From Amphibalanus amphitrite (lineage: Eukaryota > Arthropoda > Thecostraca > Balanomorpha > Balanidae): a stretch of 64,000 nt of DNA. Under the pieces are notes generated by a model. That model made no database searches. It saw only the letters and a program-made list of their open reading frames with translations, and was not told the DNA's origin. Position numbers and translations under genes: made by a program. The stretch covers positions 558,001 to 622,000 of the forward strand of contig NW_024881563.1 of NCBI RefSeq assembly GCF_019059575.1, in the 5' to 3' direction. Positions 11,746 to 55,552 of the stretch are shown here, in pieces; within the stretch, counting starts at the first letter, position 1; the number at the start of each line of letters is the position of its first letter.

Positions 11746-11841
11746 AGAAGTAACTGCTCGCCCCTGCACCTGGTGTATGGATATCGTGCAAACGTGTATG
11801 GATATCCTGGAGTATGGATATGGATATCCACCGACAGAGCA

Positions 11842-12597
11842 GACATACAGACATGCTGTAAACGCCATTACACTGCCAATACCATGGCAAATCAAATGGC
11901 TATCTATGGTTTTTGATCATCGTTCTACATTTTCCAAAATCTTGAACTGAATGTTGGCAATTTCTCGTGACTACTTCACGACCATGATGCATGCATTTCT
12001 GAAATTGATCTTTTTCAACCAGCCACGTACTCGTATGATAAAATGAATGTCACCATCGTGTTCTACGCCCAAAAGTACCCATAAAACATGTGTCATGCAT
12101 GGGCTGCGAATAGGTACCAGTTTTAATTTTCGGGGTTATGTGCTTACCTGATTGACCTGACTTTGACCCTGGCCAGTGGCCTATGTTTGACTGACCCCTA
12201 CATTGATCTGACACTCTTTTAGCACTTATATGAAGGGTTGTGACAGTTGTGACAGTTGTGACAGATTGTTTAGGACCAACTGATGACTGAATTTATTTAG
12301 GACCAACTGATGACGATATAATCGAAACGCGAAACGCGAGGCACCGATTGCGAGGTTCTAAAGTCCATGCTACTGAAAGCCCGATTTCAAGTGTTTGACC
12401 TGACCTTGACCCGACCTCTGACCTCGAAATTCAGCTTTAAAGTATTCATGTGAATCGTCTCGTCGCGTTCTTCTTTCGTTTGCCGCGCCTCGTGCGTTTC
12501 GCTGCGCCTATTTGTTCGCGAGTTATCGGCTGGGGGCGTTGAACGCCCCCCCCCCCCGGCAAACGGCGGATGGGGAAGTACCCCAGCAACTGCCGGG
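11842..12597 (+). mobile_element. 5'-truncated copy of TTAA element A (unoccupied hairpin)
   Basis: From 'agacatacagacatgctgtaaa' on, this follows element A (19397 onward) closely, including the AGGTCA/TGACCT-rich body. It ends ccccagcaactgccggg followed by TTAA (12598-12601). At 12534-12556 it carries the hairpin ggggcgttgaacgcccc. In element A at 19.2-21 kb the centre of this same hairpin is occupied by another 892-bp element. The left end is missing; the copy begins beside the CTCCGA minisatellite. Confidence 0.75.
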
Positions 12598-12601
12598 TTA
12601 A

Positions 12602-14281: not shown

Positions 14282-14285
14282 TTAA

Positions 14286-14782
14286 AGGGACTATCCCACC
14301 TTCTAAAATGTTGTTAAAACCAGTTAAATTGTGCCCAACTTTAAAGATTGGATGACCAGGAACACGGTTCTGGCATTTATTTTTCATTAAACATCTTAGG
14401 CTTCCCATATTCCAAACACAAACTTTCAAATATGTGACGTCACAGCCCAAAATTACCTCCTTCCCCAGGCCACCTTACTGTCATAAAGCTGATTCTTTTT
14501 ACTCTGTAGGCACCACAACAAAGTTCAGACCAAGTTTTAAGCGATTTTTCAACGAACAAACCCATTTAAATCAGAATGACTAAACGAGGTGACGTCACAC
14601 TAACGGTCGCTCCATGTTGAAGATAGGGCCTTGTACAAGGCCCATTTTCAAATGAAGGGAACAAATTTCTTCAACACCAAGAGGCCGCGGGGGTTGCAAC
14701 CTAGATAGATAGTGGTTTCTGAACCTCGCCGCAAACTTGGCTATCTCAACTCAAACCCCATGTTAAAGGTGGGATAGTCCCT
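14286..14782. mobile_element. Kolobok-like MITE with perfect 17-bp TIR and TTAA duplication
   Basis: The two ends are AGGGACTATCCCACCTT in exact inverted orientation. TTAA flanks both sides (14282-14285 and 14783-14786). TTAA-AGGG termini are the style of Kolobok/T2 DNA transposons. The 497-bp interior has no long frame, so it is non-autonomous. It interrupts the GGGCCC minisatellite, hence is younger than the array. Removing it restores 'ggccttaaagggccc', a normal unit boundary. Confidence 0.9.
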
Positions 14783-14786
14783 TTAA

Positions 14787-18407: not shown

Positions 18408-20011
18408 TACACTGAGCACTTCACTGAGGGCACTGTAGGTGAAACGAAAGCAAATATTTTCAGATAAAAAACCGCTATTGCAACATGATGACAAATCAGT
18501 TGGGGAAACCACGAGGAGCCAACCAAAAATTGGATTAGCCAATCAACGGCTGGAGTGGGCGGGGCGATGACCATATATGGTCATAAAATCAGACAACTTC
18601 ATCTTTTTAATGCATTCTACACTCAATCGGTGCACAATTAACTGGCGGCTTTAAATCGCAGAGTTACAACACAAGGTCAATCAGTGATTGGTTAACACGG
18701 ACGGACGTATAAATAAACTGGACTGACAATCCCAATGGACCTCCTATGGAAGATTGTGAAGCCGACAAGGCGCCATTTTACGTTGCCAAAAAACCGTGCT
18801 GTGAAAGGTCATCGAGCCAATACAATTGAAATTGCGTCTAAACGGATGATCGGATCAAGACGCTGGTGGTACCGTTCGACGCGTAATGCCTTGAGGAAGG
18901 TGATGCTGGATGCCACAGATCACCCGGTGTCACATGGCGCGTGCCACGTGCCGACGAACTTACAAAGGGCAAAAATCTTTAAGCGACGCTCCAAATCAAA
19001 CGAAGGGCGGCATAGGTGCCAAACTCACAGGTCACATGTCCCAGTGTTCGACCACTAACATATGGTATGCTCGGCATCAGGGGGTGCGGAATGCACGCGC
19101 TAGGGGCGAAAAACATGTTTTGAGGAGGCATCCTCCGATTCCGGAAAACCTTGACCTAGGCACACCAAATTTGGCACACTGACACTACTGGACACGCGCT
19201 TTAACCCGCGAGTTGCTGGGGGGGGGGGGGGCGTTAAATTTGGGTACCTGTAGGGAATTGATTGAAGTTTATTGTGACAACGTTTCAAAAAAATCGGTCG
19301 GAAAATTTTTGAGATATCGAGGTTTTAGTGACGTCATGATTTCTGAGTTTTGACCAAAAACGGTATATGTTCAAAAAATCATATAAAATCACAGAATAGA
19401 CATACAGACATGCCGTAAACGCCATTAGACTGCCAATACCATGGACAATCAAATGGCTATCTTCGATTATTGATTATCGTTCTGCATTTTCCAAAATCTT
19501 GAACTGAATTTTGGCAATTTCTCGCGACTTCTTCACGACCATGATACATACATTTCTTAAATTGAACTTTTTGAGCCAAAAACGTACACATATGATAAAA
19601 TAAATGTCACCATCGGGTTCTACGCCCCAAATTACCCATAAAACATGTGTCGCAGGCTGCGAATATCAGTTTTGATTTTCGGGGATATGTGCCTACCCGG
19701 TTGACCTGACCTTGACCCTGACCTATGCTTGACTGACCCCTATATGGAGCTGACACTCTTGTAGGCCTTATATGATGGATTGTGCACCGTTTTGACAACG
19801 TTTATGACGAGAGGCGCCCATTGCGAAGCCCTGAAGTCCATGCTACTGAAAGCCCGATTTCAGGTGTTTGACCTGACCTTGACCCGACCTGTGACCTCAA
19901 AATTCAACTTTAAAGTACTCATCTGAAGCGTCTCGTCGCGCTCTTTCGTTTGCCGCCTCGTGCGTTTCGCTGCGCCTATTGGTTATCGAGTTATCGGCTG
20001 GGGGCGTTTAA

Positions 20012-20903
20012 CCCTATTAGTGGCAGGCTCCTGGTTACCCCCTATTAGTGGCAGGGGGGGCTGTTTACGACCCCCCCTTGATATCTCGAGATCTAATGGG
20101 CCGATTTTCAAAATTCAAACGGCATTCGATTTCGCTCAACGTGATCTACATTTCTAAAAAATAAAAATTAAAAAAAAATGTCAATAGGGGGGTAGAGGGG
20201 GGTAAAAACGGGCAAATTGCAGATACATTTTAGACTGTTTATCACGGCCAGGTTTATGAACCAATCTTAACGCAACTTTTGCTGATCGATAGAGAATGAA
20301 CCAGGAATTCACATGGATCCTAAAAATATGCATTTTCAAAAATCATAGGCGGATACAGATCATTGAGATTGGGGGTACACAAAAAGTATAGTAAATAAGG
20401 TTTTTATTGGTACTGTTTCTAAAAAGGGTGGCAATGGTCTTGTTATGTTACAATTTTCTTATGAGAGAACGACTACAATTGTATTGGTCATGCATAGGCG
20501 GTGTCAGGGCACCTATGTTGGAGGTAAAACATAACCCCCCTTTTTGGACGTCTGGATCCGCCTATTATAGCAAAAACGTGTCAAAAGAGGATGCACAATA
20601 ACTTTGTATATGTTATCACATGATACCTTTCATTTACTGTTCGTAAAACTGGTGCATACAGTTATAATACATCAGCATCGTGATCTTCGCCCAAATGACT
20701 CGCTTCACGAATAGGACCCCCCAATTCCCAGTGCTCTGGAGCCGCCCCTGGTAAAGTTATGAACTTGAAATTTTCAGGGAGTGTGCCCAATTTAGTTTTA
20801 GGAAAAGTCAGAAAATTTCAGCATCGTAGCTTCAGCGGTTTCGGAGATATTCCCGAAAAACCTGAGGGGTGGATAAAAACAACCCCCCCTGCCACTAATA
20901 GGG
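20012..20903. mobile_element. TTAA element nested inside A's terminal hairpin
   Basis: The ends CCCTATTAGTGGCAGG are exact inverted repeats, flanked by TTAA at 20008-20011 and 20904-20907. The terminal motif is repeated just inside the left end (about 20040), followed by the hairpin ggggggg-ctgtttacga-ccccccc. The unoccupied site is seen in the A copy near 12540 (gcgttgaacgc). A hAT-like MITE sits within it (20344 to about 20570). Confidence 0.9.
20344..20570. mobile_element. hAT-like MITE (GGCGGATCCAG ends)
   Basis: It begins CATAGGCGGATACAG and ends ctggatccgcctatt. This is the GGCGGATCCAG terminal family also seen at 25215, 57722 and 60383. No target duplication is certain here ('caaaaat' against 'caaaaac'). 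Confidence 0.55.
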
Positions 20904-20965
20904 TTAACGCCCCCCCCCCCCAGCAAACGGTGGGTGGCGAAATACCCCAGCAACTGCCGGGTTAA

Positions 20966-22682
20966 GGTGCTGTACAAAATAGAATATCCATCTCCTGTTG
21001 GACCCCAAAGGTGCGCTGTGCACTTGCAAAAAAATTGTCCGCGCCGGGCGGTTGGGATGCTTGGACACCCCATGTGGATTTACATAAATATCTCGAAAAC
21101 GGCGTTGTGTAGCGCCGCCGTTTTTTGGCACACCTTTTCATACATCTTTTTCACACATGCTGCGTAACTTTCAGACTTAGGTCACTCAAGGTTAGGTCAT
21201 CAGGTTACGTCCAAGTGACCTTACCTTAGGAAAAGTTATAGTGCCCGTCATAGCTACACAGACTGAGCAATCGGTTTAAAACGAGCAGCGATTGATAAGA
21301 GCAACAGCATATACGAAGCTCTACCTCGGAATTTCAATATCACTGACCTAGGGTTCTGTTGATTTCGCAATTTTTCTATTACAGTTAAGTCAATGGGAGA
21401 CAATTGAACTGCGCTTCTGTGCACGAAACTCATATAAACGTACTAAACAATGCACTCAAATAACGGGACAGGGGTGGCAGGGAAACGTAACGAACTTAAT
21501 CGGGAAATTGCACCTGTGACCTATCTTTATGTCCTAGGGTTATTTCCTAGGGTGAACCAAGGTCATCAAAGGTCAGTGACCTTGACCTACCCTTCACGTG
21601 ACCTTGACACCTACCATATTGCATGGGACCAACAACATTTCACATGTTCGAACGTACAACCACAAAAAGACTGGAAACGGCGGATAATGTGGGCTGACTT
21701 ACGCCGAATCACGATTTTGACCAAACACGGTCTCGTGAGATATCAGATACTGATTTACCGCTACTCAGTCAAGTTCGAACCATTTCTTGGCCGCAGTCAC
21801 CGGTCCAGGCCACCACATAGGTAATCGTATTACACCGCGACTGCTCAATGCTCAGCTCGTATTGTAAAAGCACTGCGGCACAGCATAGATGCAGGCGCTT
21901 GGCTACTGCCATCTATGGGTGAAAGATGAAGATAATGGTTATTGCGGTACAGTATCACTGCAGGCGGAAACAACGTGGACAACAAAGATGCCCGTATGCT
22001 GCGCTGGCCGGCGATTGAGGCGTAACTTTGCGTTGCTGGGTAGCAAAAAGTTTAGGGGCCCGAATTTGACAACATAAATGATTTGCCGTGCTGGTGGTCG
22101 GAGGTCGCAAAATCAACAGAACCCTAGGTCAGTGATATTGAAATTTCGAGGTAGAGGTAGGTACTCGACGTATATACTGTTGATCTTATCAATCGCTGCA
22201 CGTTTTGAATCGATTGTTTAGTCTGCGTAGTGCGTAGCTATGACGGGCATTATAATTTTTCCTAAGGTAAGGCCACTTGGACGTAACCTGGTGATCTAGC
22301 CTTGAGCAACCAAAGTCTGAAAGTTATGCAGCATTTGTGAAAAAGATGTATGAAAAGGTATACAAAAAAAAAAACGGGGGCGCTCCACAACGCCGTTTGC
22401 GAGATATTTACATAAATCAACTTAGGGTGTCAAAGCATCCCCACCGCCCGGCGCAGATAATTTTTTGCACGCGCAGAGCACACCTTTGGGGTCCACCAGG
22501 AGATGGATATGCTCAATAACTATGCTGGAATGCATTCTGGGTGGCCAGTGTAAATTTGGCACTTTGAGCTTGCCAGCGCTACCCGCCCTACCCGCATATG
22601 TGACACAGAGTGCAACATCAAAAGGTTTGCACGTGCACAGCACGTGCACCGTGTACCCCAGCACACCTATTTGTACAGCACC
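20966..22682. mobile_element. TTAA element B: foldback with ~420-bp arms
   Basis: The ends GGTGCTGTACAAA are inverted repeats; TTAA flanks at 20962-20965 and 22683-22686 are shared with neighbours A and C. The left arm (20966 to about 21385) and right arm (about 22110-22682) match for about 420 bp once a 149-bp MITE is removed from the right arm. The loop of about 720 bp (21386-22110) has no recognisable frame. The arms include 'aggtcatcaggttacgtcc' and other half-site motifs. Confidence 0.85.
22519..22667. mobile_element. 149-bp MITE inside B's right arm, TA sites
   Basis: It is absent from the matching position of B's left arm, so the insertion boundaries are clear. It starts actatgctgg, ends ccagcacacc, and has TA on both sides (22517-22518 and 22668-22669). 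It contains the E-box-like repeat gcacgtgcacagcacgtgca. Confidence 0.65.
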
Positions 22683-22686
22683 TTAA

Positions 22687-23890
22687 CCCGCGCCCTGGTG
22701 GGGTATGTTTATAACGCGACCTGGTGGGGGGGGGGCTATTTTTTGCCCCCCCCCCCTCGTATCTCCGAAACTACTGGACGGATCCGCAAAATTCAAACGG
22801 CGTTCGAAAGGCCTGTCAAATTTGTCGAGAGAAACCCAATTTCATTGACCTCGGGGTCACCGATGACGTCACAGGTCAGGTCAAAGATGACATGTTTCAC
22901 CGTTCACGGGTCATCTAGGGAATGCGCTATAACACCGAATAAAACGCATTTTGTCGAGAATCAGCGATAGGGCGTCAGTTGCCTAGTAGATATGTTGCTA
23001 TTAGAGATCACTGACAATACCAGGTCAGGTCACAGGTCAGGTCACCAAGGGTCACAGGTCAGGTCACATGAGCCCAACTTTGCTAAGGTTGTGTGATGTA
23101 TGTTTTATGGCCAATTTTTCATTTCCAACTCAATGGTGTTGGTTATAAGATTATCAGGTATGGCTTAGGTCACTTTCTGGTGAAGTTCAGGTCAAGGTCA
23201 TGTCAAGGTCAGGCCAAAAAAGGTCAAATTTTAAAGTTGATATTTTTGCATAAAATGGGTATTAATTCGATGCAGCTCGTCACGGGGAGTCTAATGGTGG
23301 TCTTTGTTTTGCGCTACGGGGGTCTAGAATTGCTAAAAATTGAGTTTGAAAATTTGACGTCATCAATTTTGAACAGTTTTTTCGCTGTAACTTCGCCAAA
23401 AAAGAGGTATCGATCTAAAATTTGGTATGTGGATGGAAGGCGGTAAGGACTATCACATATATTCCGGTTTTTGCGAAATTCAATTTTTTTTTGGATTTTT
23501 CGATGATTATATCCAAAAAAATATTTTTTTGCTTTTTGGGGGTCAAAATCCAAAAATTTAAAAAATCCGAGATAGCAGTTTTGTAGCCCTGTCAATTCTA
23601 CAGCTTTTATGTCATTATCATTTTTCTGTATTTGCAAAGCTATAGGCCTGACAGCTCTTCCCGCGAAACCCTTTTTGGGGTCGAAAACGGCAGAACATGA
23701 CGTCACTCTGACGTCATTTCCGGCCAACCTATCATAGCCTTTGGAAAATTTTTGGTCACAATGTGTAAAATTGATGTCCGGGGGGGGGTACTGAAAGTTT
23801 GGTGACGATCGGCGCAGCGGTTCTGGAGATATATCAAAAAGTCTAGAGGGGGGGGGGGGCAAAAAATAGCCCCCCCCACCAGGTCGCGGG
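22687..23890. mobile_element. TTAA element C (CCCGCG family, 1.2 kb)
   Basis: The left end CCCGCGCCCTGGTGGGG and right end (CCCGCGACCTGGTGGGG on the minus strand) are flanked by TTAA (22683-22686 and 23891-23894). A second copy of the terminal motif (cgcgacctggtgggg) and a poly-G/ctatttttt/poly-C hairpin lie just inside the left end, with a similar hairpin at the right end. The body (22850-23230) holds dense AGGTCA and TCAAGGTCA motifs. Members at 37710-38908, near 37631 and at 39370 share this design. No coding frame is supported. Confidence 0.85.
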
Positions 23891-24060
23891 TTAAAGCGCG
23901 TGTCCAGTAGTGTCAGTGTGCCAAATGTGGTGTGCCTAGGTCAAGGTTTTCCGGAATCGGAGGATGCCTCCTCAAAACATGTTTTTAGCCTCTAGCGCGT
24001 GCATTCCACAGTCCACACCCCGTGATGCCGAGCATACCATATGTTAGTGGTCGGACACTG

Positions 24061-24169
24061 CTCGGGGTTACATGAGTAGAGTTAATACGCATTACAAACG
24101 GACTACAATGGTGAGCGAATAGGAAAATCCGTTCCTGATACGCATTTACTTGCTCATGTAACCCCGGTA
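24061..24169. mobile_element. 109-bp MITE (GGGGTTACATGAG ends) in D's right arm
   Basis: It is absent from D's left arm. Inverted ends cggggttacatgag; ACTG flanks both sides (24057-24060 and 24170-24173). Same terminal family as the 1.4-kb element next to the sno exon at 48.4 kb. Confidence 0.75.
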
Positions 24170-24503
24170 ACTGAGACATGTGACCTGTGAGTTTGGCACC
24201 TGTGTCGCCCTTCGTTTGATTTGAAGCGTCGCTCAAAGGTTTTTGCCCTTTGTAAGTTTGTCGGCACGTGGCACGCGCCATGTGACACCGGGTGACCTGT
24301 GACATGCATCATCACCTGCCTCAAGGCATAACCCGTCGAACGGTACCACCAGTATCTCGATCCGATCATCCGTTTAGACGCAATTCTAATTCTATTGGCT
24401 CGATGACCTTCCAGAGCACGGTATTTTGGCAACGTAAGATGGCGCCTTGTCGGCTTCACCTGAATGGAGGTGGTTGCGGGTCCAGTTTATTTATACGTCC
24501 GTG

Positions 24504-25206
24504 TTGGCAAATATGGCGGATTGAAACAGACGCGCTAAAAATGTAAGCAGTACCATGGTTTAAAAATGTCATTATTTTTATTATTTTGTTTATGTTTTTT
24601 TTTTAAATTTTGGTTAAGTTATCATTTTTAAATTAAATATCTTTGTTTATTGTAATTAAATTAAATCTTTTAACGATTTTCTTTCAAAACATCAATCCAT
24701 TTATTGAATGGCCAGCTGATTGTGACGCCCAGAACCTGCAGAAAAGGCGTTTTCCTATCGCCATTTTCGAGTCAATTCGCCGAATTTAATCAAATCACGC
24801 TAATTCCTAGTGGAAAATGGAAGCCTTTTCTCTCCGATAAGTGGACGCGATACCGCAAGTACCGGCTTGTTATACCGTTTTTCACCTTTAGTAGCGGGGG
24901 CTGCATTTATGCCCATATATGATCATCAAAAGTCCATTTATTGACCAATCAATTTTTTGACTTTTGCCTCGTAGTTTCCCCAACTGAAATAGTTCGATCA
25001 ACGCCAAACCTAAAACCAAATATGAAAGTGTGAAGCAAAAAAATCATGACATTCATCATACTTTTGGGTTTTCTCACTAAATATTTCATACCTGTGGGCT
25101 GTGCTTATCAAATAGATAAGCATAGATGAAAAGTTTGACACAAAACAGTAAGCTTCAGAAATAAATTAACCTAACCTAAGCCTTCACCCTATGTAGCATT
25201 CTATCA
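24504..25206. other. no recognisable gene
   Basis: AT-rich DNA after the TTAA nest. Short frames only; no ends or repeats delimited. Confidence 0.45.
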
Positions 25207-26260: not shown

Positions 26261-26948
26261 TAAATCTGTTTACGTTTCTCAGTGCTTGTGCGAGGATCAT
26301 ATTAAAGCATTTTGATGAACGATTAATGACCTTACCCTCGTAGTTTGAAAAGTTAGATCAAAACACTTGTTTATTAATAATTTCGAGCACAGCTCTTCAT
26401 CAGAATACAACTAGCTAAAAATGTCACGATAAAAATCCAATCATTGACTGCATAACTCATTGCAAAATATTTCCCGCCAAACATTTTTTGCGCGCAAATT
26501 CTCGAGAAAATAGTACAATCAGGTTCAACCGTTTTCAAGATCTAACAGCATGTTTGACCTAAAAATTAAATAAAGTGTTACACATCCAACCAACAAAAAT
26601 ATATCACTTTATAATACCTCGACCAATAATTTGAGGCTATTGCTTACATGCATTGTTAAAAGCTTATTAAAAAAAACATTCGCAATCAACCTGCCTATCT
26701 CTACTGATATTAATATCACGATAGCCTAAGGTCAAATAGCCAACGCTAATATTCTTTTAACATTCATGTCACACCCCATGGTAAAACATCACAAAATCAC
26801 AATGCGAACAAAAACACACACACAAACACCTATTAGCTCATCAGTACGCGCATACATATTCATTATATATATCTTCATGAGTGTCACAAATGTGGCTCAT
26901 CACATGATCGGCCATGAGGTCACGTTCGAATTGAGGACAGTCTTTCGA

Positions 26949-29900
26949 TCTATATTATGATTTATAACATGTCTGTACGACGTGCGTGCATCCGTGTGTC
27001 ATGTCTTATGTGTCTTATTGCGCCTGAAAGGCGCCGCGTAGCGACGTGAAATTTGGCATGTCGAATTGGTGGGTTGATGTGACCTCTGTATTAAAATTTG
27101 GGACGGATTGGCCCAGGGGTGCGCCGTCAGCACGCGCTCGCGTGCGCCATAGGGTTAACACAGGAAACGGTCAAATCGAAGATCGGGCGAAAACCGGCCT
27201 GCGGCGCCCACTTCCCGGGCCCAAAACTCGGCGACAGATTGCCGTAGCGAGGTGGGGCTGCCACCACTGGATAGAGGAGAGATGGGCCTAGCGTATTGAT
27301 ATGGTTTCATAGTATAGCACGCGCCACGTGCAAGACAGCACCCCCGGTTGTCAAAAAATGACCGATTTCGTGCATTGTAACGGGAAATTCGATGCCGCTG
27401 GAAAACGGCTTGACGGAATGAAATCGGTGTGGTGCCATTTTACAGACAAATGGATGTGTAATCAGAGAATAGCAAACAAAAAGTGATGATCCGTACCATT
27501 TCCTTAATAATCTATATTATGATTTATAACATGTCTGTACGACGTGCGTGCATCCGTGTGTCATGTCTTATGTGTCTTATTGCGCCTGAAAGGCGCCGCG
27601 TAGCGACGTGAAATTTGGCATGTCGAATTGGTGGGTTGATGTGACCTCTGTATTAAAATTTGGGACGGATTGGCCCAGGGGTGCGCCGTCAGCACGCGCT
27701 CGCGTGCGCCATAGGGTTAACACAGGAAACGGTCAAATCGAAGATCGGGCGAAAACCGGCCTGCGGCGCCCACTTCCCGGGCCCAAAACTCGGCGACAGA
27801 TTGCCGTAGCGAGGTGGGGCTGCCACCACTGGATAGAGGAGGGATGGGCCTAGCGTATTGATATGGTTTCATAGTATAGCACGCGCCACGTGCAAGACAG
27901 CACCCCCGGTTGTCAAAAAATGACCGATTTCGTGCATTGTAACGGGAAATTCGATGCCGCTGGAAAACGGCTTGACGGAATGAAATCGGTGTGGTGCCAT
28001 TTTACAGACAAATGGATGTGTAATCAGAGAATAGCAAACAAAAAGTGATGATCCGTACCATTTCCTTAATAATGAAAAATTAATTTGAAAATTTATTTCG
28101 CGCGGAGCGCGGTGTCCTTTACAACATCAAAACGTATTGAAAACGCTGATCAATCGCTATGAAACCTACATATTCGGAAAAAGCATTCTTTTCTGACCAA
28201 TATCCACCCAAAATATTATCGAAAAGTAAATAAACTTTTGTGAAAATGACTCAAACATACGACCGTGTTTTGTTAACGTTACAGGTATTTTTCGACAAAA
28301 TCCGATCGATGGCTTATGGCCGGCAGGTCATACAACTTTTGACAATAGCTTTCAAAGCATGGGCTGCAATGCACCGCCCGCCCAGCGGAATCCCAAATAC
28401 TTGAAATAAGCGCTAACAAGTAAACAGTACATTTTTGCACTAGGAATAACTCAGCAGCTACTGGGCCGATTAAACTGAAACTTGGACTGTGGGTGGAGGG
28501 GGCACTCATCTGGCGATGCATGGTCATTTGTGACAGGTAGGGTGGATCGATTGCACGTGCGCACGTGAGGGGTCCATTTATACATCTCAAGAACGGCTGG
28601 GCCGATTTCGCTCAAATTTTGTACACTGATAGCGACAATTTAGAAAGGTGGCTGGCACAAGTCATCTGGAGTCTCAGTTTGCGCGTGCGCACGTGCAGTG
28701 GGCCAGTTTTATATCTCAAGAACGGCTGGGCCGATTGCGCTCAAATTTGATACGTCACTTTAATCGAGTATGAGAAGGGTAACTATGTGTAGGTTATTAG
28801 TAAGGTAGGGTATGGGTAGGTTAGGGTAGGGTAGGGTAGGATGGGTTTGAGTTCGATAAAGGCAAACCATGAGAAAGGCTCTAACAACCCGCAACCAGCA
28901 CCAGCATAACATGCCGTTCAAACAAATATCCAACTCCGACAAAATAAGACAAATAAAAATCATAAGTTCCCACATCCAAACTAATGCCCACTCAAACGCA
29001 TCTATCAAAACGCACAGTTATAGCGCAAAACATGCCATCTAGTGAAAAATTAATTTGAAAATTTATTTCGCGCGGAGCGCGGTGTCCTTTACAACATCAA
29101 AACGTATTGAAAACGCTGATCAATCGCTATGAAACCTACATATTCGGAAAAAGCATTCTTTTCTGACCAATATCCACCCAAAATATTATCGAAAAGTAAA
29201 TAAACTTTTGTGAAAATGACTCAAACATACGACAGTGTTTTGTTAACGTTACAGGTATTTTTCGACAAAATCCGATCGATGGCTTATGGCCGGCAGGTCA
29301 TACAACTTTTGACAATAGCTTTCAAAGCATGGGCTGCAATGCACCGCCCGCCCAGCGGAATCCCAAATACTTGAAATAAGCGCTAACAAGTAAACAGTAC
29401 ATTTTTGCACTAGGAATAACTCAGCAGCTACTGGGCCGATTAAACTGAAACTTGGACTGTGGGTGGAGGGGGCACTCATCTGGCGATGCATGGTCATTTG
29501 TGACAGGTAGGGTGGATCGATTGCACGTGCGCACGTGAGGGGTCCATTTATACATCTCAAGAACGGCTGGGCCGATTTCGCTCAAATTTTGTACACTGAT
29601 AGCGACAATTTAGAAAGGTGGCTGGCACAAGTCATCTGGAGTCTCAGTTTGCGCGTGCGCACGTGCAGTGGGCCAGTTTTATATCTCAAGAACGGCTGGG
29701 CCGATTGCGCTCAAATTTGATACGTCACTTTAATCGAGTATGAGAAGGGTAACTATGTGTAGGTTATTAGTAAGGTAGGGTATGGGTAGGTTAGGGTAGG
29801 GTAGGGTAGGATGGGTTTGAGTTCGATAAAGGCAAACCATGAGAAAGGCTCTAACAACCCGCAACCAGCACCAGCATAACATGCCGTTCAAACAAATATC

Positions 29901-30012
29901 CAACTCCGACAAAATAAGACAAATAAAAATCATAAGTTCCCACATCCAAACTAATGCCCACTCAAACGCATCTATCAAAACGCACAGTTATAGCGCAAAA
30001 CATGCCATCTAG
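26949..30012 (+). mobile_element. outer 1,532-bp non-autonomous Helitron, split by an identical copy
   Basis: It begins A|TCTATATTATG at 26949 and ends gccatCTAG|T at 30012: the 5' TC and 3' CTRR ends inserted between A and T that define Helitrons. Segments 26949-27510 (562 bp) and 29043-30012 (970 bp) total 1,532 bp, exactly the length of the inner copy. No target duplication is made; removing it restores a continuous Penelope-like coding strand. No Rep/helicase gene is present. The interior contains 'gcacgtgcgcacgtgca' modules and a 'ggttagggtagggtagg' stretch. Confidence 0.92.
27511..29042 (+). mobile_element. inner 1,532-bp Helitron, nested in its twin
   Basis: It starts TCTATATTATG after A (27510) and ends CTAG (29039-29042) before T (29043). 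The host A^T site lies inside the outer Helitron at 'ccttaataA^Tgaaaaatt', which is continuous in this inner copy at 28072-28073. By eye I find one substitution between the two 562-bp segments and one between the two 970-bp segments, so both insertions are recent. Without the ends analysis this looks like two separate tandem duplications (562x2 then 970x2). Confidence 0.92.
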
Positions 30013-31034
30013 TTCCTGATAAAGATCGACTCCGCAATCTTTCGATCTGGGTGATCTTTGGCCCTATACAGAATTCTAGCCTCGATGGGGGATGGAGTGA
30101 GGCCAATGCCAGGATGGCACTCTGTAAAGTGATCACCCATAGGCGTGTCCTCCTTTCTGTTGGCGATATCCCGGTAATGTTCATTGAACCTCAACCGTAT
30201 GGGTCTCTTGGTTTCCCCCACATACTCCGTCATGTCACCATTTTCCATACATGCCTTGCATTGTAGCGAGTACACAACATTTTTTACAGTACACTGTCCT
30301 CCGAAACCACTCTTACAGATGTTGCAGCGGTTTCTGCCTGGACAGAGCGGCTGTGTAAAAGCTGAGCGAACTAAACTTTTTCTGAGTTTGTTTTCATTCT
30401 TCCACGCAAGCCTGACGTTAAGTCCCGATCTCTTCACCACATACTTTACTTTGTGTAGCAAGTTCCCATCAATGTACGGCAAAGTCAAAAATCCATCAGA
30501 TCCCACTTTACTTTTGTTAACGTTCTTGTTTTTCTTAGCTCTGCTCAACCTCACCTCCCGGATCAGCCTTTTTAACAATTTGGGCGAGTACCCGTTCCCC
30601 AACAATAAAGAACGAATCTTTTCCACGCTGGTATCTTCCTTACTCTGGTTTGACAAATTGTTCAAGGCCCTGTGAAACATATTTCTGATCATGTTGTGCT
30701 TTGTGGCTTTGGGGTGTGCTGAATCTGCATGAAGAACAATCCCCGAGTTAGTCGGTTTCAGATACAATTCTGTCTCTAGTGTCGCCTCCCCTGTGCTGGT
30801 AGTAGCTATAGAGACCAAGGTGTCCAAGAAGGGGACCCCTCTTTCCTTGTCAGAATAATCCAAGGTAAACTGTATCTTTGGATGCAGACTATTTAGATAC
30901 CGGAGGAACTCCAGTAGTTCTTCCTTACCATGTGTCCAAATCCCAGCGTAGTCGTCAATGTACCGCACTAGGAAGTCTGGTTTGTGGGCTGCATTGGAAA
31001 GAGCTTGTTGTTCCAGTCTATCCAAGAAAATTAT
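30013..31034 (-). CDS. Penelope-like element: RT C-terminal part and GIY-YIG endonuclease
   Basis: The minus strand encodes the end of the Penelope RT, including RYIDDYAGIW (YIDD catalytic motif) and PFLDTLVSI. A linker with a Cys-rich stretch (CPGRNRCNIC) follows, then a GIY-YIG nuclease domain: VVYSLQCKACM and YVGETKRPIRLRFNEHYRDI. RT plus GIY-YIG is unique to Penelope-like elements. The nuclease is thought to nick the target that primes reverse transcription. The segment is bounded at 31034 by the 675-bp insertion and at 30013 by the Helitron; coding strand continues beyond both. Confidence 0.9.
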
Positions 31035-31709
31035 TACGGAGCGAGCGAAGCGAGCGTAGTCTTTCCTTAGATTAACGGAAATTTCTGAGTATGAGCGGCC
31101 GGCCGGCCGGCCGTGGTCACGCTTTTGCGAGGCTTATATCTCAGCAACCACTTGACCGATTTACATGCGGTAATTTTTGTAGGGTAGCTTCATTCCTTCT
31201 ACCAAGTATTGCACTATTCCCGATGCATGTGGGTGACCCCTTATGCACGTGCCACGTGCAAAACGAAGAGGTGTCACTTTTGTAATTGTTGCAATATCTC
31301 GGTAACTACTTGGCCGATTGCGCTGAAAGTTGGCATGTAGGTAGGCACCCACTAGGCACTGCATATCCATGTGCCAGAGTTGGGGTGCTGCTGCACGTGC
31401 GCACGTGCAGGGGTCGTTTCCAGATCTCGAGAACGGCTGGACCGATGGCGCTCAAATTTGGTACACAGTTAGGGACCGGTTAGTAGGGCGCCGTGCACAA
31501 GTCAGTTGGGACCCATTTTGCACGTGCGCACGTGCAGAGTGCCGCTTCCAGATCTCGAGAACGGCTGGGCCGATTGTGCTCAAATTTGGCACATCGCTAG
31601 AGACCGGTTAGTAGGGTGCCGTGCACAAGTCAGCTGGAGGTACCCCCTCGAAATTTCGCACGTGCAAGGCTCACCCTCTCGCTCGCTCCGTTAGTCGCCC
31701 CAAAAGACG
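31035..31709. mobile_element. 675-bp element inserted in the Penelope RT, 4-bp TTAT sites
   Basis: TTAT occurs at 31031-31034 and 31710-31713, and the coding strand is continuous when it is skipped. Inside the ends, 'acggagcgagcg' (31036) and 'cgctcgctccgt' (31680) form an inverted repeat. The body has three repeats of 'tcgagaacggctgg.ccgat' and 'gcacgtgcgcacgtgcag', the same modules found in the Helitron 970-bp part, so it is related in content though not in ends. Superfamily unknown. Confidence 0.75.
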
Positions 31710-32889
31710 TTATACTGGTTGCTAAGGGTGGAGCACACGGGTTCCCCATGGCAATGCCCTCTTTTTGACGAAAGAAATCTTCTCCAAACGAGAAAACATT
31801 ATTCTGGAGACACTGATCTAAGAGAGTGCAAATGTCACTGACACTAAGGCCAAACATCTCTATGTCCTGCTCGTGTGTTTCTAGCTTTTGTTTAGCTGCC
31901 TTTATTGCCTCCTCTACCGGGATACTCCCGTAGAGATTGACAACATCTATACTGAAGAAAATGTCCTCGGCTGAGAGCGGCTGAGCCCTGCAGTGGTCCC
32001 TGCTTCTAGCCAAAAAATCCCTGGTGTCCCAGATATGTGTTGGAATAAAGGCCAGCAATTGTTTCAGAATGTTCTCAAGCAAACAGGCCGTCTTCTCTGT
32101 GGGTCCCCCTGATCCTGACACTACCGGTCGTAAGGGCACCCCCGGCTTGTGATCCTTAGGTAACCCGTAAAATACTGGTGTTCTACTGTGCATGGGAGTT
32201 AGTTCCTCCATCAATTTGTCAGGTAACTTACCCTTAGCTACTGATTTGAAAGTCTGCTTCGTTTTAGCCTCTACCTGTGGTACTGGATTCTTCCCGAGTT
32301 TGTCGTACTTATCTGTGTCACCCAAAATGTCATTAGCTTTACTCTGATAAACCGCTCTGTCCATAATAACGAATCCTTTACATTTATCACTCGGTTTTAC
32401 GATGACATCGTCACTAGACGCTAACTCTTTGATAAACCCCTTTTCTTGTTCTGTTACGTTAGGAGCATCTGTTTTGTGGTTTTTGTACAAACGCACTAGG
32501 TCAAGCTTAAGCTTATGTAGATCCCTCTCTGCCTGTGGCTCAGAAGGAGGTGGGAATCTTTTAGCCGTATCAGGGAAAGTGAAATTCAGGTTCGGAATCG
32601 TACCTCGCCCGGCACGAGGGCCATCCCGGCGTGATCCGTCCCTGTCATCTGGCTGTTGTCCTGACGAGACGTCCTCCAGTCCTCCATCCGCGGGTGCGGC
32701 TGACGGGTCAGTGGCCAGCTGCTGCCGTACATGAGCCTCCTGTGGCTGATAGCTGCCGTCCTGTTGTTCAGTCCCGTTGGGCGCAACCACTCTCTCGGGG
32801 TGGCACGCTGCTGTAGAAGGTTGAGCTGTAGCCTCCTCTGGTGTTTGCTGCTGTTGTCCAGGGATCGGTGTTACTCCCTGATTGACCAA
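31710..32889 (-). CDS. Penelope-like element: N-terminal region and RT N-terminal part
   Basis: Read from 32889 downward, a Gln/Pro-rich leader is followed by a conserved Penelope RT: KPSDKCKGFVIMDRAVY, PVFYGLPKDHKPGVPLRPVV, FFSIDVVNLYGSIPVEEAI (first catalytic Asp) and EGIAMGNPCAPPLA just before the 675-bp insertion. The start at 32889 is tentative. Upstream sequence to 33010 would be 5' UTR with the inverted terminal repeat. Confidence 0.88.
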
Positions 32890-33027
32890 TCCAGACGTGA
32901 GCCGGCCTTGTTTCCGACGCTCGATGTCATCTTTCCAGCGTTTTGATACAAGTTACAAGTGTTTTGATCTAACTTTTCAAACTACGAGGGTAAGGTCATT
33001 AATCGTTAATTAAATCTGTTTACGTTT

Positions 33028-34011: not shown

Positions 34012-35553
34012 TTCACATTGCCCCAAAAGACGGTAAATAACTTTTGAAAATACCCATCTCCAATTTTAGTGTTTTCTGGACCAAAATTTTGCGAGGAATC
34101 CGATGGTGTGGTCCCCGAGATCTGAAAAATTTCCATTTTGGAGATATCATCTATTTTTTTGAAAAATAAATATTCGTCAGGCACAATAGTCAAATAAATT
34201 GAAAATATAATGAGTCAATTTTTGTAACAACACTAGAATGTGTCGAACATGAATTAGAGATATGTTTTAGCTGAGATGATACTATATCTGCGCATACATG
34301 TGCATGAACTAGTACATTAACCCTCGTCGGCCGAGAAGGGATGGGGCGGGTGCCGCCTCATAGGGCTTTTCGCGATAGCTTAAAACTCGCTTAGGGTAGA
34401 CAGCTGAAACTTGGTATACCTAATCTTTTATTCAAACTGGATCTTTTCACCTCAACTGCGTTTTCAGGTCAGGTCAGGTCACTGACCTATGACGTCATAA
34501 ATAAACCTCTGCGAGGTCCTCAGATGTTGCAAATTTGCAACGCCCTCAGTGCCAGAGGAACTTTCACAGGAAGATGAAAGTTACGGGACGTAGTATCCTT
34601 CTGAGGTCTCACAACTTGTTTATCTCGGATTTAACGTAAATGTCACATGAGGTCAGGTCGGTCACGTGACCTCACCATTATAAGTCAATGGGGGAAATAT
34701 TGAAACTGTTATTTTGGCGCCGGAAATGATCTAAAACTATCCCATGCACATGAAATCGTGGTTTCATGATCGGACCTTACAAAGAGTGCATGAAACCAAG
34801 ATTTCATGTGCTTGGGACAGTTTTTAGACAATTTCCGGCGCCAAAATAACAGTTTTCATATTTCCCTCCATTGACTTATTATGGTGAGGTCACGTGACCG
34901 AACTGACCTCATGTAACATTTGGGAAAAATCTGAGATATACAATTTGTGAGACCTCTAAAGGATACTACGTCCTGTAAGTTTCATCTTCCTGTGAAAGTT
35001 CCTCTGGCACTGAGGGCGTTGCAAAGTTGCAACTTCTGAGGACCGTGCAGAGGTTCATTTATGACGTCATAGGTCAGTGACCTGACCTGACCTGAAAACG
35101 AAGTTAGTGTCAAAAGATCCAGCTTGAATAGAATATTAGGTATGCCAAGTTTCAGCTGTTTTCCCTCAGCGTGTTATGAGCTATCGCGAAAAAAAAAACC
35201 TATGAGGCGGTATCCGCCCCACCCCTTCTCGGCCGGCGAGGGTTAATGTACTAGTTTATGTACATGTATGCACAGATATAGTATCATCTCAGCTAAAATA
35301 TATCACTAATTCATGTTCGATACATTCTAGTGTAAATATAAATATTCACTCATTATATTTTCAATTTATTTGACTTTTGTGCATGACGAATATTTACTTT
35401 TCAAAAAATAGGTGCTATCTCCAAAATGGAAATTTTTCAGATTTCGGTGACCACACCATCGGATTCCTCGCAAAATTTTTGTTCAGAAAACACTAAAATT
35501 GAAGATGGGTATTTTCAAAAGTTATTTACCGTCTGTTGGAGCAATGTGGCTTG
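34012..35553. mobile_element. outer foldback occupied at its TTAA centre
   Basis: The arms 34012-34316 (305 bp) and 35247-35553 (307 bp) are inverted copies, e.g. 'gacggtaaataacttttgaa' at both extremes. They meet at 'actagtaca-TTAA-tgtactagt', a perfect palindrome, and the 922-bp inner element sits exactly there. As with element D, the arms would have no spacer without the insert. No coding sequence and no clear outer target duplication. Confidence 0.85.
34321..35242. mobile_element. inner TTAA foldback, 922 bp
   Basis: The left end CCCTCGTCGGCCGAGAAGGG and right end (CCCTCGCCGGCCGAGAAGGG on the minus strand) are flanked by TTAA (34317-34320 and 35243-35246). The arms of more than 400 bp are inverted copies around a short centre near 34780. 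The body includes 'caggtcaggtcaggtcactg' and 'tgacgtcataa'. The whole 34.0-35.55 kb region is therefore a palindrome inside a palindrome. Confidence 0.9.
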
Positions 35554-36299: not shown

Positions 36300-37631
36300 A
36301 GAATGTTCAACTTCAAAATTTGACCTTTTTGACCTCGCCGTGACCTGAGCTTCATTTGTCGAATGGAAATAGTTTCGAACCGGACAACCCAGATGACATC
36401 ATTTTTAGATGCTTTTGCCGAAATGGATCATTAACGATGTGTCGCATGACCTTAAAAATGTATACATTTCCTTCCATGACCTTTTGTGACCCATGACCTT
36501 TCCATGACCTTTTGTGACAAAGTTAGGTTTCGTTTGTCAGCTATTCCTATCAGAAACCGTTTGAATTTTTAGTATTGAACGAGTAGTTTCGAAGACAGCA
36601 GGGAAGCTATGCAGAATATCCTCCCGTGTCACCCACGTTATGGGATATACCCGTCATCCGCGGATTACAAGCAAAAATATTTTTACGGCAATGCTAGATC
36701 AGCAGGATGCTCATACGTTTCCATACGTGACCTGAAGGGTTACTTCACATATAATAAAAATTCCTTGGCAAAATGTCAACTGGTTAACGAGTTATCGCAT
36801 TTTGGCCACTTCCGAACTCAAATAGCGGCTGTGTGCACTGCAGTGGTAGCATGCTTAATCCGCGCACAGGTGCGGTTCTTTGCCACTTTCGCCATGTGAG
36901 GGAGCCTTTTTAGGCACACTTGGCAATCTAAAAAAACTCTGAAAGCTCATTCTGGCCTCTGAAAGCCCCTTTTCGGCAACAGAGTGAACGACTCTGGCCT
37001 CAGCCGGCCCCATAATGGCCTCAGGAGAACGGAAACAAAAATAGCAGCATTCGATTCGCCGTGCATCAAAAACTGCATCAGATAGACACCTTTTTAGGCC
37101 TTAACAACCAACTTCAAAATTTGACCTCACTTGACCTGACCTTGACCTGACGTCAACCTGAAATTCATGCGGATGTGGTCCATATTAATTATTGAGCGTG
37201 CCTATTGATTTCTATGAATAAAATGACCCATAAAACATGTATCGCACATGCCCTTTTCTATATTTCGTTTTTAGTGACCTGACCTGACTTTGACCTTGAC
37301 CTTTGCATGATATGTTATGCAACGATTATTGTCTTGGTAGCCTAAGAACACGTTTTGGGCAATCAGTCTCAGTCCATTCTTAGGCAACTACGATGCAAGG
37401 CCGATACTGTAGAAACTTGTATTTTGTACCCTTGACCTGACCTTGAACTGAATTCTGACCTACTTAAGCATTAAATTTGGGCTCTTAAGATCCGCCTTGT
37501 TAAGAGCTTTGGATTGCCGTTTTCTCCGTCTTTCTATGACCATCGGTTCGGAAGTTGGACAGGAGGGGGGGGGGCAGAATCTGCCCCCCCCAGCAGGGCG
37601 CGTATGGCTGAATAGCCCAGCGGGGCGCGGG
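36300..37631. mobile_element. CCCGCG-family TTAA element, right end only
   Basis: The right terminus (CCCGCGCCCCGCTGGGC on the minus strand) is followed by TTAA (37632-37635). Just inside it are the repeated terminal motif (cgcgccctgctgggg) and a poly-G/cagaatctg/poly-C hairpin (37562-37590). The body leftward has repeated tgacct motifs. I could not find the left end, so the start is approximate. Confidence 0.6.
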
Positions 37632-37709
37632 TTAAGTCACGAATTTTTGTCATTTCTCAGTTACATAACGTGTTTATGTAAACTAGCGATCGCATAAAAA
37701 CTTTGTTAA

Positions 37710-38908
37710 CCCGCGCCCGGCTGGGGGTCCTGGATTTCCACGCCCTGCTGGGGGGGGGGGGGTGTTCAAACACCCCCCCCCTTGTAACTCGGCTCCTGGG
37801 CCACGTAGCGATACGCGGAAGGCGGCGTTCGAAAGAGCGTCAAAAATAATGACGAAATCACTTCAGTCAATTTTTTTGGTCAGGTCAAAGGTCAGGGCAC
37901 CAGAGGTCATTGAAGGCAAAATTTCGCCGATTTCCAGGTCGAATGTCGAAAATGTCCAAGAAGCCAACGCATAACTCGGGAACCAATAGAGCTACAGCGC
38001 CGCGGAAAAGTGCATTCGATAGCCCTATTAACGCCCTTTCTGAGTAATTCTCTCAGATTTGACCTAACGTCAACGGTTTTGCCTGCAGGGGGCAAAAACT
38101 GCACAAATAGCCGATTTTTTTGGAAACAGTTTTTCTGCAATAACTTTTGACCAAAGCCTTGTACGAGCTTACTTTTACCGGCATCGTGTTCCTCTCGTTA
38201 AGACGCATCGAATGAACTATAACTTGACCTTGAAAGGTCAACTTGAAAATTTGACCTCAGGTCAAGGTCATGACCTGACCGGAAAGGGTCATGTTGCATA
38301 TCAGTCGATTCGTATCGTCGAGCTGAACACATATAAGGCGTTTTTATCGCTCTATCATGCCTCTATCAAAAGTTATTTGCGAAAAACTGTTAGATACCAT
38401 TCGTGACCTTAGATGACCTCAGGGCACAAACAAGGGTCATGGACACCATTTTCATGTTCAGTGTGTCTAAACCACTTGTAGTTCGGTGTTTGGGAGTGTT
38501 TATAATGTCTTCCGTCCAAAAGAGGCGCATTTCAATTTTCTCCCATTGACTTATAATGGGGAGGTCGCAAAATTGACCTGACCTTAGGTCATCGATATCA
38601 AAATTCTGAGATATACATTTTGTACATGCTATTGCTCTTAGCAATCGCTAAAAGTTTCAAAGCGATTGGTCACTCGGTGTAGCTATGACAGACATTGAAA
38701 CTTTTTATGAGGTGAGGTCACTTCAAGTGACCAGGTGACCTGACCTTGAATGACCTTGGTCTGAAATTTTCACAACATGTGTAGAATGGATGTATGATAA
38801 GGTGTACCAAAAACGGCGGTGCTCCTTGCCGCCGTTTTTCAGATATTCGCGAAAAACCACAAGGGGAGTGTTCAAACACCCCCCCCCCCCCCCCCAGCAG
38901 GGCGCGGG
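37710..38908. mobile_element. CCCGCG-family TTAA element, complete (1.2 kb)
   Basis: The left end CCCGCGCCCGGCTGGGGG follows TTAA (37706-37709). The right end (cagcagggcgcggg) is followed by TGAA (38909-38912), one change from TTAA. The left subterminal region has the second terminal motif and the hairpin poly-G/tgttcaaaca/poly-C. The body is rich in aggtca motifs, and 'aaaacggcggtgctccttgccgccgttttt' (38809-38838) is a further internal hairpin resembling one in element B. Length matches element C (1,204 bp). Confidence 0.85.
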
Positions 38909-38912
38909 TGAA

Positions 38913-43173: not shown

Positions 43174-46100
43174 CATTGTTTAAATATCCATTTGAGTAGG
43201 ATTTGGCGTTATTTGAAGTGCTCAGTTTTTGCAGCGAGCTTTTCCTGTTAGGGCTTGCGAGATACCCGCGGAAACACATATCTCTTCAGCATTGCGCGCC
43301 ACACAGGAATGCGGCTGATTCACGTGCTTTTGTGAGCGAGGTGCTTCCCTCCGGGAGAAATTCGCCGTCCCCATATGCTTAACACAGAGCCGAGCGGCGG
43401 CTGACAGGTGGCCGGCTCTCGGGAGATCGGCAGCCGACACTCGAAAAATCGACAAGCCGCCGCTGAATGCGCGTGCGGCAGTGCTGAGCCGAGTCGTTCC
43501 CACGGTCTGAGGTACCCCCAGTTTGAAGATTCGGCTGTAGAATATGTAGTTTTAAATACGTAGTTTGACGTAAATCTCGGAAAAGTGAGATACGGCCAGA
43601 AATGAGTGTGGGTCCCTCCGTTCTGAAGATTCTGATCGACGCCGATTGAAATAATTCGCCGTGCATATCTCGGCTTATTGACGACCGATTGACACGGGAT
43701 AAACACCGATCGATACCAAATGGCTCTGTGGGGGGTGGGGGGGGGGGAGTAGAGTGGCAAGTTTTCCTACCCTACGAACCCGGAATTATCCCGAGGGGGT
43801 AGGTGTGGGAGTAGAGTCGGGGGAACGGGGGGGCAAGTGCAAGTACCAAGTACTTTCGCAAGTACCAAGCAAGTACCAAGTACTTTTACAAGTACCAAGC
43901 AAGTACCAAGTACTTATGGAAATACCAAGCAAGTACCAAGTACTTTGGCAAATACCGAGTACTTATGCAAATACCAAGTACTTTTGCAAGTTCAGCAAGT
44001 TTTTCGCCAATATCGAAGCTTCTAGACGTCCGATCGTCACCGGAAAAACACCATTCAATCCCAAATTTTCTCCCGAATCTGTTTATGGCCAAAGCGACGC
44101 GGAGCGAGCCAAGATATCTTGTTTATTTAAATATCCATTTGAGTAGGATTTCGGGTTTTTTGAAACGCTCAGTTTTTGCAGCGAGCTTTTCCTGTTAGGG
44201 CTTGCGAGATACCCGCGGAAACACATATCTCTTCAGCATTGCGCGCCACACAGGAATGCGGCTGATTCACGTGCGATTGTGAGCGAGGTGCTTCCCTCCG
44301 GGAGAAATTCGCCGTCCCCATATGCTTAACACAGAGCCGAGCGGCGGCTGACAGGTGGCCGGCTCTCGGGAGATCGGCAGCCGACACTCGAAAAATCGAC
44401 AACCCGCCGCTGAATGCGCGTGCGACAGTGCTGAGCCGAGTCGTTCCCACGGTCTGAGGTACCCCCAGTTTGAAGATTCGGCTGTAGAATATGTAGTTTT
44501 AAATACGTAGTTTGACGTATATCTCGGAAAAGTGAGATACGGCCAGAAATGAGTGTGGGTCCCTCCGTTCTGAAGATTCTGATCGACGCCGATTGAAATA
44601 ATTCGCCGTGCATATCTCGGCTTATTGACGACCGATTGACACGGGATAAACACCGATCGATACCAAATGGCTCTGTGTGTGTGTGGGGGGGGGGGAGGGG
44701 GTAGAGTGGCAAGTTTTCCTACCCGACGAACCCGGAATTATCCCGAGGGGGTAGGTGTGGGAGTAGAGTCGGGGGAACGGGGGGGGGGGCGAGTGCAAGT
44801 ACCAAGTACTTTCGCAAGTACCAAGCAAGTACCAAGTACTTTTACAAGTACCAAGCAAGTACCAAGTACTTATGCAAATACCAAGCAAGTACCAAGTACT
44901 TTGGCAAATACCGAGTACTTATGCAAATACCAAGCAAGTACCAAGTACTTTGGCAAGTACCGAGTACTTTGGCAAGTACCAAGCAAGTACCAAGTACTTT
45001 TGCAAGTTCAACAAGTTTTTCGTGAATATCTAAGCTTCTAGACGTCCGATTAACACGGGACGAACACCAATCGATCCCAAATTTTCTCCCTCATACTTTG
45101 ATTGCCAAAGCGACGCGGAGCGAGCCAAGATATCTTGTTTAATTATCCATTTGAGTAGGATTTCGGGTTTTTTGAATTGCTCAGTTTTTGCAGCGAGCTT
45201 TTTCTCTTAGGGCTTGCGAGATATCTGCGTGCACACATATCTCTTCAGCATTGCGCGTGACATGGAATGCGGCTGAATTCACGTGCGATTGTGAGTGAGG
45301 TACCCCCAGTTGGAAGATTCGGCTGTAGAATATGTAGTTTTAAATACGTAGTTTGACGTAGATCTCGGAAAAGTGAGATACGGCCAGAAATGAGTGTGGG
45401 TACCTCCGTCCTGAAGATTCTGATCGGCGCCGATTGAAATAAGTCGCCGTGCATATCTCGGCTTATTGACGACCGATTGACACGGGACAAACACCGATCG
45501 ATACCAAATGGCTCTGGGGGGGGGGGGGGGGGAGTAGAGTGGCAAGTTTTCCTTGACCCGACGAACCCGGAATTATCCCGAGGGGGTAGGGGTGGGAGTA
45601 GAGTCGGGGGAACGGGGGGGCGAGTGCAAGTACCAAGTACTTTCGCAAGTACCAAGCAAGTACCAAGTACTTTTACAAGTACCAAGCAAGTACCAAGTAC
45701 TTATGCAAATACCAATTTGGCAAGTACCGAGTACTTTGGCAAGTACCAAGCAAGTACCAAGTACTTTTGCAAGTTTAACAAGTTTTTCGCCAATATCGAA
45801 GCTTCTAGACGTCCGATCGTCACCGGAAAAACACCATTCGATCCCAAATTTTCTCCTTAATCTTTTTATCGCCAAAGCGACGCGGAGCGAGCGCAAGATA
45901 TCTTGTTTAGTTATTCATTTGAGTAGGATTGCGGCTTTTTTGAAACGCTCAGTTTTTGCAGCGAGCTTTTCCTGTTAGGGCTTGCGAGATATCTGCGTGC
46001 ACACATATCTCTTCAACATTGCGCGCCTCACAGGAATGCGGCTGAATCACGTGCGATTGTGAGTGAGGTACCCCCAGTTGGAAGATTCGGCTGTAGAATA

Positions 46101-46700: not shown

Positions 46701-46927
46701 ATTTGAGGTTTTATTGCGCATCATTGTCTCACGTGTCTCACGTATATTGTTTCACTTGACTAAAGGACGGTTTCCAAAATCAAAATTAATCAAGGACGTG
46801 CTAAATACCGCATCAAAGCGACTTTGCACTAAGCGTTGCTCTTCCCCTGAGCTGCATCCAGTTGGTGTCCCACTGTGCCCTGTCGGCCGCTCGGCCCCAC
46901 GACTGGGGAGCCTGGCGTCCCTCACTT

Positions 46928-55195: not shown

Positions 55196-55552
55196 CTAGA
55201 TGGCGTATTTTGCGCTATAACTGTGCGTTAGGGTGTGTCATCGAGGGGGTGATTCTCGCAGAATCAAACGCCGTAAGGTTTTTCCTTGGCACATTGATCA
55301 ATAATGAATTTTCATCCATATCCGAGTCCACCAAAATTAAAATTCGTGCGGCGCCAGCCGTTCAAAGTTTTGGCGCCCGGCGTTGCAGTCTCCAATGCTG
55401 AGCGTCACCCAGCACTGCGAGTAACACCAAGTATTGTTGGAGGTAATAATGCAAAATAACTACCGCTGAAAATGATGCTTTTGAGCGCTTCTAAGGCTGA
55501 TTGTTGCAAAAAAGCATGTCCTTAGAGTGTCCAATTATTCTTTTTATTGTGC

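Follow-up and report, generated by a model that had tools for sequence, protein, structure and literature searches.

At positions 18696–24503 of a 64,000-nt stretch of Amphibalanus amphitrite contig NW_024881563.1, several mobile elements bounded by the tetranucleotide TTAA lie one within another. The whole stretch is termed the window; coordinates are those of the window, and comparisons and counts were made within it unless otherwise stated. Two complete elements, A and C, abut at the centre of a fold-back element, D; a further element, E, lies in a palindrome of A, and another, B, lies at the junction of A and C. By their ends, A, C, E and a related element, J, are filed here as piggyBac-type non-autonomous elements, with the CCCG tips of A, C and J departing from that type. 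By a modest balance of probability, the nest reflects ordinary nesting of such elements in a fold-back element and in one another. The families are ordinary; the nest is unusually clear.

The nest within fold-back element D

A first-pass annotation of this DNA described a nest of TTAA elements at D, and both the nest and its limits, 18696–24503, hold up. As annotated, the two arms of D, each of about 500 bp, meet without a spacer at a TTAA within TTTAAA, and a block composed of A, B and C sits exactly there. Of 60 positions flanking this block, 59 are symmetric, and the perfect arm extends 34 bp from the dyad. Gaps aside, alignment of the arms themselves gives 490 columns, of which 34 are mismatched (93.1% identity); the inner 113 columns, a cut set by eye and not used here, contain 3 of these mismatches (p = 0.026). 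The outer tips of the A–C block, namely the left tip of A and the right tip of C, share 13 of the 16 bases that follow the TTAA. Because these tips are related, the inverted match at the D centre continues weakly to 19225. They are identical over the first 11 bases only, TTAA included, and therefore D's own symmetry ends at the TTAA.

D has tips of its own, and the sequences immediately outside it, TTGGTTAA and TTGGCAAA, are alike at 6 of 8 bases, which suggests that D moved as an element. It is the sole large case in the window that requires either insertion into the centre of a palindrome or fold-back copying from element tips. By eye, the later insertion in its right arm (about 24060–24170) ends in the inverted tips CGGGGTTACATGAG, perhaps with ACTG at either side. 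Additionally, a pair of 54-bp inverted repeats (76%) lies outside D, at 18496–18549 and 24934–24987, and D may sit off-centre inside another inverted-repeat element.

The window holds partial second copies of both central elements. A2, a copy of A truncated on the left, tracks A to its right TTAA and then passes into a different flank; C2 is the left end of a C-like copy beside an unrelated flank, and its right end was not found in the window. Since A2 ends and C2 begins in TTAA beside other flanking sequence, A and C are independent elements.

As the first-pass annotation described, E occupies the TTAA at the tip of a hairpin inside A. Its flanks, when joined, read GGGGGCGTTTAACGCCCCC, with a perfect arm of 9 bp and a TTAA displaced by half a base from the dyad. 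The annotation called for a search for other copies of A, and A2 is such a copy, free of E and with its hairpin open, but the hairpin's centre reads TTGAA rather than TTAA. The centre of this right subterminal palindrome of A has the form GTT-N-AAC, and TTAA is present only when N is T or A. At the other end of A, the left subterminal palindrome (19201–19260) is cut short at TTAA (GGGGGCGTTAAATTT...), as if the TTAA itself had been affected; A2 is without the left end, where this shortened palindrome lies.

B occupies the A/C junction, as annotated, and its joined flanks read CGGGTTAACCCG, with a perfect arm of 6 bp, but the element looks composite. What makes its site palindromic is a pair of element tips facing one another there. 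Both arms of inner B resemble the right third of J, matching it at 298 of 400 and 239 of 354 positions. The computed match begins about 22 bp inside the J tip, and the boundary letters, read by eye, are TTGT in one arm and TTAT in the other, with no clean TTAA. In the simpler reading, inner B would have come about by inverted duplication of a single J-like end together with about 74 bp of flank.

A second large palindrome lies near 34 kb, where the arms O enclose the palindromic sequence F. The outer arms noted in the first-pass annotation do form a palindrome, at 34014–35548, in which TTAA boundaries lie at 34317 and 35246, but it runs through the TTAA without a step. Mismatches between arms number 24 of 306 in O and 44 of 450 in F (Fisher p = 0.44), corresponding to identities of 92.2% and 90.2%. 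Unequal ends were not found in F; both of its ends are copies of one end, and it is accordingly kept out of the set of independently inserted members. Given the equal divergence of O and F, the stepless TTAA and the doubled F end, a single inverted duplication that included the O/F boundary suffices. The 34-kb palindrome thus appears better read as an inverted duplication across that boundary, with no insertion at its centre, though equal divergence is weak evidence and F may yet be an independent insertion. The locus carries a caution, in that an inverted duplication across an element boundary mimics insertion at the centre of a palindrome. The arm identities of D, O and F, together with those of the B core (88.5%) and the B shell (a local match, 47 of 53 positions), give no order of events.

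Element ends and their likeness to piggyBac

TTAA together with inverted tips is found in A, B, C, E, F and G, the last being a TTAA element of another type. The TTAA target duplication is exact on both sides of A, C and E; in J, the left side has TTAA but the right side, read inward, has TTCA. When ends were compared side by side, A, C, E and J each proved to have two unequal ends. At the short-spaced end, the tip motif passes directly into a G-run palindrome that starts 14–15 bp from the tip; at the long-spaced end, the tip motif is followed by a spacer and a second copy of the motif, and the palindrome begins 40–43 bp from the tip. The distances at the two ends are 14 and 41 bp in A, 14 and 40 bp in C, 15 and 43 bp in E, and 14 and 41 bp in J; at the left end of J, the tip motif itself accounts for the G run at 14, and the run of the palindrome lies at 41. 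Three elements with a single readable end agree, with 40 bp at the left of C2 and 41 bp at the right of both A2 and K, an element related by that end. The G-run palindrome was not seen at either end of F or G, at the outer ends of B or at the tentative left end of K. The tip letters are CCCT in E and F, CCCG in A, C, J and the right end of K, and TCCG at the left of K.

The palindromes at the left of C, the left of J and the right of K, as well as the A2 hairpin, all fold into hairpins. Compared with shuffled sequences, folding is clearly favoured in the first three (z of -3.3, -4.7 and -3.6, respectively) and not clearly in A2 (z of -1.7). As A, C, E and J share subterminal palindromes, the hairpin that holds E is A's own subterminal palindrome, and by analogy with piggyBac it is probably a transposase-binding site.

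These ends resemble those of piggyBac in the TTAA duplication, the CCC tip and a palindrome placed 26–28 bp farther in at one end. In Ifp2, 19-bp repeats lie 3 and 31 nt inside terminal repeats of about 13 bp, a difference of 28 (PMC12324416). Unequal placing of the piggyBac 19-bp repeat is also described in PMC11707139, and the repeat is bound by the cysteine-rich domain of the transposase (PMC7351741). The differences from piggyBac are the CCCG tips of A, C, J and the right end of K, set against the CC[C/T]T motif given in PMC2872659, the makeup of the palindromes, which here are G/C runs, and the want of a transposase among the 10 open reading frames scanned. A, C, E and J may have been mobilised by a piggyBac transposase, presumably one supplied in trans.

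Table 1. Features of the nest and of related elements, in window coordinates
Feature	Position	Strand	Description
D left arm	18696..19204	+	Fold-back element, tip CACGGAC..., inner end TTAA
D right arm	23891..24503	-	Holds later insertion of ~105-110 bp near 24060-24170
A	19201..20965	+	TTAACCCGCG..., TTAA-bounded, inverted tips; piggyBac-like, non-autonomous; short-spaced end left, long-spaced end right; interrupted by E
A2	11834..12601	+	Second copy of A, truncated on the left and lacking E; intact hairpin, GGGGGCGTTGAACGCCCCC
E	20008..20907	+	TTAACCCTATTAG..., 900 bp including both TTAA, inverted tips; in right subterminal palindrome of A
B	20962..22686	.	TTAAGGTGCTG..., long-inverted-repeat element at A/C junction; TTAA, inverted tips
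Inner B	21035..22463	.	Both arms resemble right third of J
C	22683..23894	-	TTAACCCGCG..., piggyBac-like; long-spaced end left, short-spaced end right; TTAA, inverted tips
C2	39366..39568	+	Left end of second C-like copy
J	37706..38912	.	Related element; non-palindromic target; left TTAA, right tip TTCA (inward)
K (tentative)	36855..37635	.	Related by right end; left end tentative; non-palindromic target
G	14282..14786	.	TTAAAGGGACTATCCCACCT..., TTAA element of 505 bp, differing in type; target not palindromic
O left arm	34014..34316	+	Tip CACATTGC, GCTT flank
F	34317..35246	.	TTAACCCTCG..., palindromic; two copies of same end
O right arm	35247..35548	-	GCTT flank

Palindrome centres as insertion sites

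The nest led the first-pass annotation to propose a rule by which TTAA elements enter the centres of palindromes. For comparison of present sites with flanks joined across insertions, the perfect arm was taken within one base of the TTAA centre. Unoccupied palindromes centred on TTAA, which the annotation had named as a thing to look for, were sought in this way, and none of the 294 TTAA sites present in the window has a perfect arm above 7 bp. At the joined sites, the perfect arm is 34 bp for D, 12 bp for the 34-kb palindrome and 9 bp for E, followed by 6 bp for B, 4 bp for G, 3 bp for the tentative K and 2 bp for J.

Seven insertion events can be read, comprising the first and the second of A and C to arrive, B, E, G, J and the tentative K. 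Excluded from this number are F and the B core, both read as inverted duplications; A2 and C2, each lacking one end; and two further regions, H (26323–33002) and I (55337–59163), that have TTAA and matching tips, with joined-flank scores of 6 and 4, and that are not clearly TTAA elements. The target was palindromic in three of the seven events, one of these three targets having been formed by two element tips. It was non-palindromic for G, J and the tentative K (scores of 0, 0 and 1), and for whichever of A and C arrived later (score of 0 in either order). Choice among TTAA sites within the hosts was narrow: D holds three, one of them in the later insertion, O holds one, and A holds four internal sites, of which one lies in the hairpin used by E and one in the cut-off left hairpin. 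What stands of the proposal is that TTAA bounds the elements and that one block of them lies at a palindrome centre; with so few TTAA sites to choose from and four events in non-palindromic targets, a general rule is not shown. Among the literature matches listed, taken by title and abstract opening, no eukaryotic element with a palindrome-centre rule appeared, which is no proof of absence.

Under ordinary nesting, a transposase acting in trans would insert elements singly into whichever TTAA is open. Each insertion would duplicate the TTAA and add TTAA at the element's tips, so that the nest would expand in both directions, inward as well as outward. Palindromy is already a property of fold-back elements and of element tips, and the few TTAA sites of D, O and A include some at dyads. 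The 34-kb palindrome and B would be inverted duplications across an element boundary rather than insertions at a centre, and a slight physical ease of insertion where TTAA readily unpairs may contribute. Several observations weigh against this account. No transposase was found among the scanned reading frames, 8 of which had no Pfam match at all, so the piggyBac assignment is one by ends, and the tentative left end of K is without the characteristic palindrome. The three TTAA sites found whose perfect arm exceeds 7 bp, those at D, E and the 34-kb palindrome, are every one occupied, an outcome that undirected insertion does not predict, though this comparison is post hoc, the window having been picked for these palindromes. 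Moreover, an ungapped scan of the window with spacers of up to 40 found no open palindrome of D size, showing only F's own centre and two short palindromes, and the position of D's centre on a TTAA would be a coincidence estimated at about 1 in 16 if the two were unlinked.

Full occupancy, against none open among the 294 sites, is what would be expected if the transposase preferred TTAA at palindrome dyads, the bending and unpairing that it needs being eased by a cruciform or a bound palindrome. Within the strand transfer complex of piggyBac, the target DNA bends severely and its TTAA is unpaired, the conformation being essentially that of the TTAA hairpin intermediate (PMC7351741). Furthermore, E lies within the predicted transposase-binding palindrome of A, and peaks of PGBD5 are reported in a preprint at repeats said to be prone to form hairpins or cruciforms (PMC12324416). 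However, PGBD5 is described as being without the cysteine-rich domain (PMC11707139), and its binding may not carry over. G, J, the tentative K and the later of A and C chose non-palindromic targets, the hosts offered few other TTAA sites, and the 34-kb and B cases are explained otherwise, leaving two or three independent events that were selected post hoc. Such targeting is thus rather unlikely, if the foremost of the rivals. In its specific form, a eukaryotic piggyBac-like transposase would recognise TTAA open at the tip of a palindrome, whether that palindrome is a cruciform or lies subterminally with transposase already bound; homing sites may then be provided by fold-back elements and by the ends of the elements themselves, with nests building from the centre outward, a scheme that must be called doubtful. 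For D in particular, some ease of entry at the centre is plausible by analogy with the unpaired TTAA of the piggyBac target complex (PMC7351741).

The palindromes might instead have arisen after insertion, as the first-pass annotation had suggested in the alternative. A TTAA element would land in a single arm and, after a break, its inverted tips would anneal and repair would copy the flank, making a spacerless palindrome centred on TTAA automatic. The relatedness of the A left and C right tips speaks for this course, inverted duplications seem common here (B and F), and yeast offers documented cases of fold-back inversion mediated by hairpins (PMC7467729). B and the palindrome near 34 kb come close to this course, but D carries tips of its own. 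Both D and O have tips and likely target duplications (GCTT on both sides of O, the 6 of 8 matching bases beside D), and their palindromes therefore seem to have moved as elements. Additionally, the A left and C right tips diverge past 11 bases, within which copying must have switched. For D, where no firm choice is made, entry into a fold-back element that was already there is the simpler course, and fold-back copying as the general explanation is about as doubtful as homing to palindrome tips. Spacerless 1-kb palindromes are generally unstable, and those with a central insert may simply be the ones that persist and assemble. The ungapped scan, with no open palindrome of D size, agrees with such survivorship, yet the presence of E in a 19-bp hairpin is left unexplained, and this reading is less probable again. 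Inverted chimaeras arise in amplified DNA, and assembly or amplification could in principle yield false inverted repeats, but the arms of D and O are 7–8% apart with separate indels, one D arm has its own insertion, and the boundaries bear tips and flanking repeats, so an artefact is very improbable.

Other content of the window and known systems

The window has 45.6% G+C and a CpG ratio of 0.93. A reverse transcriptase (RVT_1, Pfam) was found in 2 of the 10 open reading frames scanned, and Rfam and tRNA searches of the window gave no match. Inverted repeats of 60 bp (96.7%) at 26311–26370 and 32955–33014 enclose a region with two long open reading frames, which by eye resemble Penelope; Pfam gave no match. 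Elsewhere, copies of about 790 bp at 55333–56117 and 58375–59167 form an inverted pair of 96.5% identity, with a run of lysine codons in the open reading frames of both, and 43176–46707 contains direct repeats of several hundred bases to more than 1 kb, 87–93% alike, with shorter repeats within. Three tip patterns gave 0 matches each in viral contigs. The A/C tip gave 5 matches in prokaryote contigs, one of these loci being bacterial in look. The window gave nothing in blastn against the 5 loci at E up to 1e-3; in a repeat at E up to 10, the best 12 matches had E of at least 0.044 and lengths of 21–29 bp, and 9 of the 12 were the searched tip itself. All of these matches are put down to chance.

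The locus offers a clear example of nested piggyBac-like miniature inverted-repeat transposable elements (MITEs) with conserved unequal ends. A preference for palindromes, if true, would tie the unpaired-TTAA chemistry of piggyBac structures to genomic landing sites; it would also account for self-nesting and open target choice by DNA shape to direct test. A plant study by Jiang and Wessler in 2001 is said to have dealt with insertion preference in nested MITEs. Through their long inverted arms, D and O resemble fold-back transposons, of which Galileo is reportedly one, and palindromic MITEs. However, the flank duplication of D is imperfect.

A close parallel for the nesting itself comes from Acropora corals, in which CMITE-IN and CMITE likewise involve a piggyBac-like MITE inserted at TTAA in a TTAA-bounded element, which is thereby enlarged (PMC2872659). 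The coral arrays are described as tandem and attributed to slippage, and the target TTAA lies between two direct repeats rather than at the centre of an inverted repeat (PMC2872659). A preference of mobile elements for palindromes is likewise described for bacterial insertion sequences that target repetitive extragenic palindromes (PMC1525189). In that case, the target is a sequence family and the account covers 981 insertion sequence copies in 19 genomes (PMC1525189), whereas here the events are few and the window is eukaryote-like.

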